A DNA stretch of 64,000 bases. Origin: Epsilonproteobacteria bacterium tcs-49. GTDB taxonomy: Bacteria; Campylobacterota; Campylobacteria; Campylobacterales; Sulfurovaceae. The notes beneath the pieces were generated by a model. It had not been told where the DNA came from, did not search any database, and saw only the letters and a list, made by a program, of their open reading frames with translations. Each line of letters begins with the position of its first letter. The first letter of the stretch is position 1. Positions 3,535-7,057 of the stretch are shown in pieces. The translations under genes and the position numbers were made by a program. Location of the stretch: assembly GCA_002049495.1 (NCBI GenBank), contig LLYS01000012.1, positions 1-64,000 of the forward strand, read 5' to 3'.

Positions 3535-3687
3535 CGATCTCCTTATTATATCTATTTCTTTTCCTTATTTTATCCAAAACGGATGACATTTTGTTATCTG
3601 TATTTGACCCTTTGTAGCAATTTCGGTACGATTGAGAAAAGTTTGTGCCCAACGGCTTGTATACAGCGCAACCGTCAAGGAGATGCG

Positions 3688-6222
3688 ATGACCCGAGACG
3701 AACTCAAAAAGTACAACGGCAAGAATGGACAAAAAGCCTACGTCGCCTACAAAGGCAAGGTTTACGACGTCACCGACAGTACGCTGTGGCAAAACGGTGA
3801 ACATGAACAGATGCACCAAGCCGGCAGGGACTTGACCGATGCCATGAAAGCCGCCCCCCACGGCGCCGGTGTTTTCAAAGGTTTCAAAGAGGTCGGCGAG
3901 CTGGAGGAAAGCAAAGAGCAATCCGCGCAAAGCCAAAGTGCCCCCGCAACTTTGAACGCTTTATATAAACGCTTTCACCCCCACCCCATGAGCGTGCATT
4001 TTCCCATCGCCCTGCATCTGTTTGCGGCCTTTTTCAACCTGCTTTTCCTTTTCGACAAAAGCCAGACTTGGGAACAGCTGGTCTTTTACTCCCTCTCCAT
4101 CTCCACGCTGATGGGAGTGTTTGCCATGATAACGGGCATTATGAGTTGGAAGATCAACTACGCCTTTTCGGCTTCAAAGATCTTTAAACAAAAGCTCTAT
4201 CTCTCAATCCTCACGCTGGGACTTGGTATCGTTGCCCTTATCATCTACTTTGCCGATACCGACGCGGTTTACGAGATATCGGGCTGGGGTGTCGTTTATC
4301 ACGCTATCGTCTTTGTTACGGCACTGACGGTGATCATGCTGGGTTACCTCGGCGGAATCATCGCCTGGGGGAGCAAATCCGCTTCCGGCGGCGCAAAAGG
4401 CGCTACAAAAAGAAAAGAGCAAAGCGCTCAAAATTTGACGGTTCAAAATAGAAAACGCGAACGCTACACCTTTGCGCCCCAAAACACCGCCACCGCTTTG
4501 CAGCTGCCGTCTCTGCCCCTGCAAAGCATGAACGCACCGGGGTCCCGAAAACCTTTTAAAGAGCTCAATATCCAGATAGGCGGTCCGGCGGGAGCGGGGA
4601 TCAATACCGTGGAGCGCCTGGTGAGCGAAGCGCTCAAAGCCCAGAAACTGTGCCACTTTATCACCAGTGAATTTATGTCCCGGGTCCGCGGGGGCAGCAA
4701 CACCACTTTTATCCGTATCGCGGAAGATGCGGTGGCCGCACCCCTATGGCAAGCCGATATCTTTATCGCTTTGGATGAGCAAGCGTACGAACACTCCAGA
4801 TCCAGAGTCAAAGATGCGGTCGTCATCACCGACAAGAACAACAAGATAGCGGCGAAAAATCTTATCAAAATCCCCGTAAAAGAGAGTGTGAAGGATTTGG
4901 GCTCCCTCTATGAAAACAGTTTCGCATTCGGCTTTCTGTGCGCCTATATCGGTATCGACGAGCGCAACGGCAAGCACGCGGTAAAGACGCTCTTTAAAGA
5001 CAAAAATGAACAAAACAACCTCAAAGCCTTCGATCTGGGTTTCCGTGCCTTTTCGGAAAAAAGCGACTTCAACCTCAGAAGCTTTGCGCAAAACCAGGGA
5101 GAGGGCGGCTATCTCAGCGGAAACGAATCGATCGGCTTTGGGTTTTTAAGCGGCGGGGTCAATTTCATCTCCTCCTACCCCATGTCTCCCTCCACGGGCG
5201 TCTTTACCTTTTTAGCCGGTATGGGAAAAACTTTTCCACTGGTGCTGGAACAAGCCGAGGACGAGATAGCGGCGCTGAATATGGTGATCGGTGCCTGGTA
5301 CGCCGGCGGCAGGGGATTGACCACCACCTCCGGCGGCGGATTTTCTTTGATGAGTGAAGCGCTGAGCCTGGCGGGGATGAGCGAAACCCCCGCACTCGTC
5401 TACCTCGCCCAGCGCCCCGGTCCCGCCACGGGTCTGGCCACGCGGACCGAACAGGGAGATCTCAATCTCGCTCTGCACGCGGGACACGGCAACTTTCCGC
5501 GCCTGATCCTGGCTCCCGGCGACAGTGAGGAAGCCACCCTCCTTGCCCACTACGGGGCGGACTTTGCCGATTATTTCCAAATCCCCGTCATCTATATGGC
5601 CGATCAATTTTTCGCCGATTCCATACGCTATGCTCCCAAGCTGGATTTCGACGCCCTTCCCGAACAAAACTTCATAACCCCCAGCAAGCGCAACTACCGT
5701 CGCTACGCGGATACGGACAGCGGTCTCTCCCCCCGCGCCATCCCCGGATACGGCGAAGGGATCGTGCGGGCCACCAGCGGGGAGCACTCCCAAAACGGAC
5801 AGATTACCGAAGATTATGAAATCAGAAACCAAGACAACGCCAAGCGGGCACGCAAACTGCAAACCCTGCGCGAGCACGCCCTGGCTCCCCAGGTAACAGA
5901 GGGAGAAAACTCCGTAGCGCTTGTGGGATGGGGATCAACGAAATCCGTCATCGCCGAAGTCGCCGCAAAACTGGGACTGAGCGCGGTGCATTTTTACTGG
6001 CTTTATCCCCTGAATGAAAAACACCTCGAACCGTTAAAGGCTTACGATAAACTCATCGTCGTAGAAAACAACGACAACGGCCAATTCCAAGATCTGCTGC
6101 GGCTGCACGGCATCCGGTGCCACGCTTTCATCGGCAAAGCGGACGGCTTTTGCTTCTTTAGCGACGAACTCCGTGACAGGGTCAACGAGCATCTATATGC
6201 AAAGGAGGATTCCCATGGCTAG
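3688..6222 (+). CDS. Cytochrome b5-DUF2231-2-oxoacid oxidoreductase gamma/alpha fusion
   Basis: 844 residues from an ATG with a strong RBS (AAGGAG at 3677-3682). Residues ~1-72 form a prokaryotic cytochrome b5-like domain with candidate heme histidines in GEHEQMHQAGRD (38-49) and AAPHG (55-59). Residues ~97-228 are a four-helix DUF2231 membrane domain opening with HPHPMSVHFPIAL. After a Ser/Ala/Gln/Arg-rich linker (~229-285) comes a complete KorA-type subunit: gamma domain (IQIGGPAGAGI at ~295-305, SRVRGGSN) and alpha/pyrophosphate domain (YPMSPST, QRPGPATGLATRTEQGD). Reading is continuous with no stop. An internal start at ATG 4528 (residue 281) would give an ordinary KorA but has no visible RBS. 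If the fusion is real, a TPP enzyme normally soluble would be tied to the membrane and a heme. korB follows with an 8-base overlap. Confidence 0.8.
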   Translation: MTRDELKKYNGKNGQKAYVAYKGKVYDVTDSTLWQNGEHEQMHQAGRDLTDAMKAAPHGAGVFKGFKEVGELEESKEQSAQSQSAPATLNALYKRFHPHPMSVHFPIALHLFAAFFNLLFLFDKSQTWEQLVFYSLSISTLMGVFAMITGIMSWKINYAFSASKIFKQKLYLSILTLGLGIVALIIYFADTDAVYEISGWGVVYHAIVFVTALTVIMLGYLGGIIAWGSKSASGGAKGATKRKEQSAQNLTVQNRKRERYTFAPQNTATALQLPSLPLQSMNAPGSRKPFKELNIQIGGPAGAGINTVERLVSEALKAQKLCHFITSEFMSRVRGGSNTTFIRIAEDAVAAPLWQADIFIALDEQAYEHSRSRVKDAVVITDKNNKIAAKNLIKIPVKESVKDLGSLYENSFAFGFLCAYIGIDERNGKHAVKTLFKDKNEQNNLKAFDLGFRAFSEKSDFNLRSFAQNQGEGGYLSGNESIGFGFLSGGVNFISSYPMSPSTGVFTFLAGMGKTFPLVLEQAEDEIAALNMVIGAWYAGGRGLTTTSGGGFSLMSEALSLAGMSETPALVYLAQRPGPATGLATRTEQGDLNLALHAGHGNFPRLILAPGDSEEATLLAHYGADFADYFQIPVIYMADQFFADSIRYAPKLDFDALPEQNFITPSKRNYRRYADTDSGLSPRAIPGYGEGIVRATSGEHSQNGQITEDYEIRNQDNAKRARKLQTLREHALAPQVTEGENSVALVGWGSTKSVIAEVAAKLGLSAVHFYWLYPLNEKHLEPLKAYDKLIVVENNDNGQFQDLLRLHGIRCHAFIGKADGFCFFSDELRDRVNEHLYAKEDSHG

Positions 6223-7057
6223 ACGATTCGACAACCCCGATCAACCCATCAGCTGGTGCCCGGGCTGCGGTAACTTCATCATCTTAAACCTGCTCAAAAC
6301 GGTTTTTGAGGAGTTGGATTTTGCCCGAAGCGAAGTAGTGATCGCCTCAGGCATCGGCCAAGCGGCCAGAACACCCTATTATATGGATGCCAATATGTTC
6401 GCGGGGCTGCACGGCAGAGCGATCCCCATGGCCACCGGGATGAAATCGGCAAACCCAAAACTTACCGTCGTCGCCGAAGGGGGTGATGGGGATATGTACG
6501 GTGAAGGGGGCAACCACTTTCTCAACGCCGTCAGACGGGATATGGATATGGTCAACATCGTACACAACAACATGGTTTACGGCTTGACCAAGGGGCAAGC
6601 TTCCCCCACCAGCCAAAAGGGTTTTACCACCAAGGTCCAGGTAGACGGGGTCAGCAACGAACCTTTCAACCCCTTAAGTATCGCCCTTGCAGCGGGAGCG
6701 GGGTTTGTCGCTAGAATCAGCGTCACCGATTTCGACCACGCCAAAGAGGTGCTTAAGCGCGCCTTTACCTACGAGGGATACGCCCTGGTCGATATCTTCC
6801 AACCCTGCGTCACTTTCAACAAAGTCAACGGATACGATTTTTTTGAAAAGCACACGTACAAACTGGGCCAGGATCACGACATGGGCGATTTCTCCCAGGC
6901 GATGGAAAAAGCGATGGAGAAGGCCCCCTTTCCCCTGGGGGTATTTTACGAAAAACCTTTAAAAACCTTTACCGCCGCCCACCATATAGAAAAGCCGCTC
7001 TTTGAAAACGTATACGATAAACGGGAGTTGCAAAAACTTTATGATACCATGCTTTAA
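6215..7057 (+). CDS. korB: 2-oxoacid:ferredoxin oxidoreductase beta subunit
   Basis: 280 residues from the ATG at 6215, preceded by AAAGGAGG. Beta subunit carrying the thiamine diphosphate site: CPGCGN at 15-20 contributes two of the Fe-S cysteines, and GDGDMYGEGGNHF (~88-100) is the TPP/Mg motif. Together with the upstream gamma/alpha polypeptide it makes a two-gene Kor-type enzyme that oxidises or, in the reductive TCA cycle, carboxylates 2-oxoacids such as 2-oxoglutarate. Exact substrate cannot be read from the sequence. No separate ferredoxin-like delta subunit is adjacent. Confidence 0.92.
   Translation: MARRFDNPDQPISWCPGCGNFIILNLLKTVFEELDFARSEVVIASGIGQAARTPYYMDANMFAGLHGRAIPMATGMKSANPKLTVVAEGGDGDMYGEGGNHFLNAVRRDMDMVNIVHNNMVYGLTKGQASPTSQKGFTTKVQVDGVSNEPFNPLSIALAAGAGFVARISVTDFDHAKEVLKRAFTYEGYALVDIFQPCVTFNKVNGYDFFEKHTYKLGQDHDMGDFSQAMEKAMEKAPFPLGVFYEKPLKTFTAAHHIEKPLFENVYDKRELQKLYDTML

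Follow-up and report, generated by a model that had tools for sequence, protein, structure and literature searches.

Comparative analysis of a 64,000-nucleotide stretch of DNA (hereafter, the window) identified a gene in which a cytochrome b5-like domain, a DUF2231 four-helix membrane domain and the gamma-alpha chain of a 2-oxoacid:acceptor oxidoreductase are joined in a single frame. At the level of sequence, this fusion is genuine and conserved in a clade of sulfur-oxidizing Campylobacterota, where it is sometimes split or trimmed. The fusion probably couples the enzyme to the respiratory membrane, either in place of or in addition to soluble ferredoxin, and our overall reading, which we advance tentatively and with a likelihood close to but short of even, is that it would provide a direct 2-oxoacid:quinone route through the b5 heme and DUF2231. 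Enzymes of this superfamily are regarded as soluble and linked to ferredoxin or flavodoxin, and their sensitivity to oxygen is believed to constrain the reductive TCA cycle of Campylobacterota. To judge from the open literature, the gene belongs to a known enzyme family but has an architecture not reported before: no description of the fusion was found in the open-access publications searched, and a search of the same literature for DUF2231 returned an unrelated mention only. A conserved heme/membrane fusion would equip the enzyme with a direct outlet to quinone or with built-in protection, both of which are testable, and the uncharacterized DUF2231 family thereby gains a specific functional hypothesis.

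Architecture, distribution and history of the fusion

The fusion gene is a single uninterrupted frame of 844 codons (positions 3688-6222, forward strand; 844 aa). The genes flanking the fusion and the adjacent beta subunit gene are on the opposite strand, so that the unit in the window consists of two genes, with the following features:

3677..3682, + strand: Shine-Dalgarno-like AAGGAG (seen in the sequence), with ATG 3688 located 5 bases downstream
3688..6222, + strand: fusion gene, 844 aa (open frame and conservation in relatives)
3691..3912, + strand: cytochrome b5-like domain, aa 2-75 (Pfam PF00173, invariant His, predicted-fold match)
3976..4371, + strand: DUF2231 four-helix membrane domain, aa 97-228 (Pfam PF09990, AlphaFold2 model)
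4372..4560, + strand: variable linker between the membrane domain and the enzyme (linker lengths among fused relatives)
4564..5055, + strand: gamma (POR) domain of the oxidoreductase, aa 293-456 (PF01558, TIGR03710)
5113..6192, + strand: alpha (POR_N and C-terminal) part, aa 476-835, with YPMSP, Arg576 and Gly698 (PF01855, TIGR03710, comparison with 5b46/5b48)
6215..7057, + strand: beta subunit (TPP/Fe-S), overlapping the stop of the fusion, with Cys15, Cys18, Gln49, Arg52 and Cys198, numbered from ATG 6215 (PF02775, PF12367, alignment, comparison with Sulfolobus)

The Pfam matches within the fusion all exceed the respective cut-offs: Cyt-b5 (residues 2-59, 37.3 bits against 23.7), DUF2231 (residues 99-228, 43.7 bits against 26.4), POR (residues 301-452, 60.6 bits) and POR_N (residues 487-713, 158 bits). 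Residues 293-831 match TIGR03710 (2-oxoacid:acceptor oxidoreductase subunit alpha, gamma-alpha subfamily) with 513.3 bits (cut-off 482.75). The beta subunit scores above the cut-offs for both PF02775 and TIGR02177, and its TPP GDGD motif, GGDGDMYGEGGN, is invariant; its score against the PRK11869 (NF008821) equivalog is below the cut-off (360 vs 438 bits; best match from Campylobacterota, 417). These matches suggest, with the same caution as for the overall reading, that the product is the large chain of an extra 2-oxoacid:acceptor oxidoreductase of gamma-alpha plus beta type (TIGR03710), furnished with a putative membrane anchor. An internal start at Met281 (position 4528) was considered and rejected, given that there is no ribosome-binding-like sequence upstream and no notable RNA structure (z = 0.46); low-level internal initiation is possible.

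The N-terminal module is present in 20 of the 398 analyzed genomes of the order, and in 14 of the 398 it shares a single frame with the oxidoreductase (approximately 828-874 codons; the open frame in the window is longer, as it opens upstream). The enzyme itself is encoded in 24 of these genomes (E <= 1e-60), in one case (G381) as a distant paralog. An annotation-free scan of a second collection, with one genome per species, yielded 12 further fused assemblies, from named Sulfurimonas, Sulfurovum, Sulfuricurvum and Arcobacter and from unclassified Campylobacterales MAGs, which brings the total to about 26, with the window included and the overlap between the collections allowed for. Wherever the contig extends far enough, the beta gene is located directly 3' of the fusion.

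The original prediction of a continuous frame with b5, DUF2231 and a complete gamma/alpha subunit is thus upheld by the 844 open codons, the domain scores and the fused relatives; the same fusion, which was to be sought in relatives, was found in about 26 assemblies of Campylobacterota, and the statement that no ferredoxin-like subunit is adjacent holds as well. The region 4370-4560, in which a missed frameshift had been suspected, stays in frame in all fused relatives and corresponds to the variable linker; this linker extends for 29-68 residues past the last membrane helix in the fused relatives and shows little conservation, which fits a tether and not a sequencing slip. Relatives with two separate genes, named at the outset as grounds for abandoning the fusion, do occur in some lineages, but they coexist with the approximately 26 fused assemblies, so the fusion is not refuted. 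The existence of this two-gene state is the one observation that would favor an artificial junction of two genes through an assembly error or an overlooked frameshift, an explanation that we consider extremely improbable: the number of fused assemblies and the differences among their linkers rule out such an artifact for the family, several of these assemblies being single-contig genomes. In one locus (L073, G299), a lone in-frame TGA, either a mutation or an assembly error, follows residue 325 of an otherwise intact fusion gene.

In a tree of 39 enzyme sequences, the window belongs to a clade of 28 rows (bootstrap 96, SH-aLRT 91), 22 of which are fused; its closest relative (L070, 57% identity over the enzyme part) is likewise fused. 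The sister clade is Sulfuricurvum, where the module and the enzyme are mostly encoded by separate genes with a 4-base overlap. Within the fused clade, the Sulfurovum branch includes one split pair (G032) and two loci (L124 and L127) that encode DUF2231 without b5. The module was lost in two Sulfurimonadaceae (family f16): in L165 (1396-3159), the first 16 residues of b5 are joined in frame straight to the oxidoreductase, an in-frame deletion scar, and in L170 no b5 remnant precedes the enzyme; both retain Gln49 of the beta subunit. A frame without the module is also found in L153 (G190). Among other states of the genes, L128:5956-6648 is a decayed copy in which one frame contains a degenerate b5, weakly matches DUF2231 and includes a fragment matching beta, and L083:6001-6690, from a Sulfurimonadaceae MAG, encodes b5-DUF2231 alone, with His110 and His205 and with no oxidoreductase downstream on the contig.

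The b5-like and DUF2231 domains

The b5 domain lacks the canonical eukaryotic HPGG heme motif, which is replaced by GxHxxxHxAGxDLT...APH, and is classified as b5-like, not as canonical b5. His39, His43 and His58 are invariant in all 14 fusions, and His39 and His58 are nearly invariant across phyla. The AlphaFold2 model of the full-length protein is poor (pLDDT 66, 14 sequences), so only a model of the 228 N-terminal residues, built on 51 homologs, was used (mean pLDDT 92.1, pTM 0.74). In this model, the b5 fold, which superposes on 6nzx and 6vz6 at 0.8 A, is followed by four helices (99-122, 126-158, 164-189 and 199-227), and the loop charges favor a cytosolic location of both ends. Tethering of the enzyme to the membrane, as proposed in the original prediction, is supported by conservation, the four-helix prediction (pLDDT 92) and this charge pattern. 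The further suggestion made there, a possible supply of electrons through heme, is plausible.

Of the 16 positions in the membrane domain with conservation of 90% or more across phyla, 15 are near the cytosolic face (P = 4e-4), including His97, His99, His104, Trp154, Asn157, Tyr158, Lys169 and Gly222; in the model, this cluster is located where a quinone site or a b5 docking site would be expected. In modules beside an oxidoreductase, the bundle contains further near-invariant positions, namely, His110, Thr140, Gly143, Gly180, His205 and Thr211. His110 is present in 27 of 27 modules adjoining an oxidoreductase vs none of the 22 found elsewhere and His205 in 27 of 27 vs 2 of 22, a contrast that is confounded with phylogeny because all oxidoreductase-linked rows are from Campylobacterota. 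His110, His205 and the nearby positions could form a cavity for a cofactor such as heme. A single bis-His membrane heme held by His110 and His205 was rejected as a candidate: the estimated heights of the two residues differ by about 15 A, and such a ligand pair is therefore not claimed. More generally, the membrane part contains no pair of histidines at matching height for one bis-His heme, as estimated from modeled heights. All of the heights, including those behind the location of the conserved residues, depend on helix boundaries placed by eye. Searches with Foldseek and VIA-align produced many tied four-helix bundles (Z 10-13), none of them outstanding, and no match to a single heme protein family, an outcome that speaks neither for nor against kinship with four-helix membrane b-type cytochromes such as b561 and b6.

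The oxidoreductase and the gene neighborhoods

In the beta subunit, Cys15, Cys18 and Cys198 are kept, and the fourth cluster-cysteine position is occupied by Gln49 in all 14 aligned members; this position corresponds to the GIGC cysteine, which we take to be the fourth cluster ligand in the Sulfolobus enzymes. For StOFOR, the CXGC pair is named as cluster ligands in the literature, and the reported cluster potential of StOFOR1 is -545 mV. Because one of the four cluster cysteines is replaced by Gln, the beta subunit is not that of a standard four-Cys ferredoxin enzyme, and the designation of the enzyme as ferredoxin-dependent in the original prediction is doubtful. The Gln variant is found also in Desulfurella, where the genes are near each other but unfused, so the presence of Gln49 is not linked to the module. 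The normal cysteine occupies this position in L139, from Chloroflexota, and in L173, the distant Campylobacterota paralog. The latter locus (L173:1483-4564, G381) encodes a different gamma-alpha/beta pair, followed by a 179-aa gene without a Pfam match.

All 14 fusions have YPMSP instead of YPITP as the alpha carboxylate motif (Thr to Ser), and Arg576 of the fusion aligns with Arg344 of the Sulfolobus enzyme. The StOFOR1 mutants K49R (beta) and D468A (alpha) favor pyruvate or lose the activity toward 2-oxoglutarate (PMC5020499). Comparison with 5b46/5b48 shows that the window has Arg52 and Gly698 at the positions of Lys49beta and Asp468alpha, respectively; most relatives retain Lys52 and have Asp or His at the Gly698 position. 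For the window enzyme, these residues point to pyruvate, as a hint and no more, and their resemblance to the pyruvate-favoring changes makes the initial label, KorA, too specific. Placement of this TPP enzyme in central carbon metabolism likewise needs care because the window genome encodes three other enzymes of the superfamily, so that the fusion enzyme is an extra one. The same genome encodes ATP citrate lyase and hence probably a reductive TCA cycle.

A same-strand gene for Fe/Mn superoxide dismutase (Pfam Sod_Fe) adjoins the oxidoreductase genes in 15 loci; the window locus has no neighbor of the superoxide dismutase or rubrerythrin type, the superoxide dismutase of this genome being encoded on another contig. 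In several Sulfuricurvum, the split genes are preceded by a gene for PEP synthase (named from the sequence by eye). A HiPIP-like gene adjoins the oxidoreductase genes in L085, L087, L095, L127, L066, L088 and L093, with Pfam support for one of the two tested, and in L065 (G032), a Cas9-like gene (assigned by eye, 1017 aa) is located approximately 1.6 kb upstream of the superoxide dismutase gene, near the split genes. A link to a high-oxygen lifestyle via the aa3-type oxidase was rejected: COX3, a component of this high-oxygen oxidase, is not enriched, being found in 2 of the 24 oxidoreductase carriers vs 30 of the 374 other genomes (1 of 23 carriers without the distant paralog).

In other phyla, a small rubrerythrin is encoded 9-152 bases 3' of b5-DUF2231 in 10 of the 24 loci, and no description of this conserved pair was found. 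The paired loci are L098, L101, L102, L106, L107, L109, L111, L113, L119 and L120. In Desulfurella acetivorans (L105:3248-10956), aconitase, b5-DUF2231, rubrerythrin, a lipoprotein, peroxiredoxin, a second rubrerythrin and the oxidoreductase pair are all encoded on one strand.

Possible functions and comparison with known systems

Under the tentatively favored reading, the b5 domain and the enzyme would both be cytosolic, on either side (in sequence) of the four membrane helices. The substrate, in this genome pyruvate or another small 2-oxoacid of that kind, would be oxidized with CoA, and electrons would pass from TPP via the modified beta-subunit cluster to the b5 heme and onward to quinone, bound close to the conserved residues on the cytosolic side of DUF2231. 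The fusion enzyme would then constitute a 2-oxoacid:quinone route alongside the ferredoxin- or flavodoxin-dependent Por and Oor. The least certain step is a possible extra membrane heme in the OafO-linked version (His110, His205 and the nearby Gly/Thr). Several lines of evidence are consistent with such export of electrons: the occurrence of the fusion in some 26 assemblies, with a single frame in 14 of 398 genomes and beta directly downstream wherever the contig extends far enough; the adjacency of the module and enzyme genes, with the 4-base overlap, even where they are split; the invariant His39, His43 and His58 in a domain that fits solved b5 proteins at 0.8 A; the conserved DUF2231 residues near the cytosolic face (15/16) and loop charges that put both ends inside; His110 and His205, which are particular to oxidoreductase-linked modules; the replacement by Gln49 of the cluster cysteine of the Sulfolobus ferredoxin enzymes; and the three other superfamily members in the genome, which make the fusion enzyme an extra one. 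Arg52, Gly698 and the PEP synthase beside the split Sulfuricurvum genes add a hint of pyruvate. Against this reading, the membrane part has no matched-height His pair and its four-helix fold matches no single heme protein family; the His110/His205 contrast is confounded with phylogeny; the module is dispensable (16 b5 residues are left in L165 and none in L170, with Gln49 kept in both); Gln49 is not tied to the module, as seen in Desulfurella; and the motif is YPMSP instead of YPITP. Furthermore, obligate autotrophy without use of organic substrates has been reported for some likely carriers (PMC12403661), and such a lifestyle speaks against a predominantly oxidative or catabolic role. The broader proposal, namely, that a superfamily enzyme is hard-wired to the respiratory membrane, that the b5 heme and a quinone (perhaps heme) site in DUF2231 deliver electrons to the quinone pool, and that DUF2231 is a general membrane electron-transfer module, paired with rubrerythrin in other phyla, appears possible from the sequences, with somewhat worse than even prospects.

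Protection of the enzyme, albeit rather unlikely, is a serious rival because genes related to oxygen radicals surround the module in many lineages, with superoxide dismutase as the same-strand neighbor in 15 loci, rubrerythrin 3' of the module in 10 of the 24 loci from other phyla, and peroxiredoxin and rubrerythrins between the module and the enzyme in Desulfurella, and because Por and Oor of Campylobacter jejuni are oxygen-labile, with hemerythrins shielding both (PMC4257069). In that case, b5-DUF2231 would take electrons from the quinol pool to remove oxygen or radicals, or to re-reduce the cluster, beside the oxygen-sensitive enzyme, the flow being towards the enzyme's surroundings; persistence of the enzyme after the loss of the module is in line with this role. 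Protection is weakened by the lack of a recognized oxygen- or peroxide-reducing site in the module and of a link to the aa3-type oxidase, COX3 not being enriched in carriers, and the window locus has no protective neighbor, with superoxide dismutase on another contig. The variable, flexible linkers, the lineages in which b5 was lost and DUF2231 retained, and the persistence of module-less enzymes would also fit a module that only keeps the enzyme membrane-bound in the vicinity of other complexes, with electrons still passing to ferredoxin or flavodoxin; this seems improbable inasmuch as the conserved b5 histidines and the conserved cytosolic pocket would be superfluous for a mere anchor. Least plausible among the functional alternatives, and highly unlikely, is the reductive direction, in which the enzyme would receive electrons from the module and use them to fix CO2 (pyruvate synthesis) in these autotrophs. 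Reductive carboxylation driven by heme b or quinol would require a large energy input, since the potentials of both are too positive by hundreds of millivolts (StOFOR1 cluster, -545 mV), and the ordinary Por and Oor are available for CO2 fixation; the points in favor of this direction are the ATP citrate lyase in the genome, and so a probable reductive TCA cycle, the PEP synthase beside the genes in Sulfuricurvum and the assignment of two-subunit enzymes to CO2 fixation in a 2025 paper (PMC12403661). The literature on two-subunit enzymes is divided, describing them either as an oxygen-tolerant form or as an anaerobic form.

As in the fusion, the Sulfolobus StOFOR1/2 (5b46/5b48; PMC5020499) and Hydrogenobacter KorAB combine a gamma-alpha large chain with a beta subunit, have no intramolecular ferredoxin domain and contain the TPP motif and the Arg344 equivalent; unlike these enzymes, the fusion has N-terminal b5 and membrane domains, Gln for the cluster cysteine and YPMSP for YPITP. 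The 'two-subunit Oor' genes described in 2025 in seven mangrove isolates (Thiomicrolovo, Hydrocurvibacter and Sulfonitrofixus), for which a CO2-fixing role under anaerobic conditions was put forward (PMC12403661), and the genes of several fusion carriers are probably the same; the main text of that paper mentions neither cytochrome b5 nor the fusion. The archaeal b5 proteins 6nzx (Hadesarchaea) and 6vz6 (Methanococcoides) belong to the same b5 subfamily (52-55% identity, rmsd 0.8 A) but, unlike the fusion, are stand-alone domains. The b5-DUF2231 proteins of Deferribacteres, Nitrospirae, Aminicenantes and others consist of the same two-domain module but, except in Desulfurella, have no adjoining oxidoreductase; often, rubrerythrin is next to them, and they lack His110 and mostly His205. 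In flavocytochrome b2 and sulfite oxidase, a b5 domain is a built-in electron relay, with catalytic domains unrelated to those of the fusion; the b5 domain of the window differs from these in lacking HPGG. Finally, the Euglena pyruvate:NADP oxidoreductase, in which PFOR is combined with a P450-reductase domain, is soluble, employs a flavin acceptor and has no membrane domain, but is alike in principle, as a superfamily oxidoreductase fused to its own electron acceptor.
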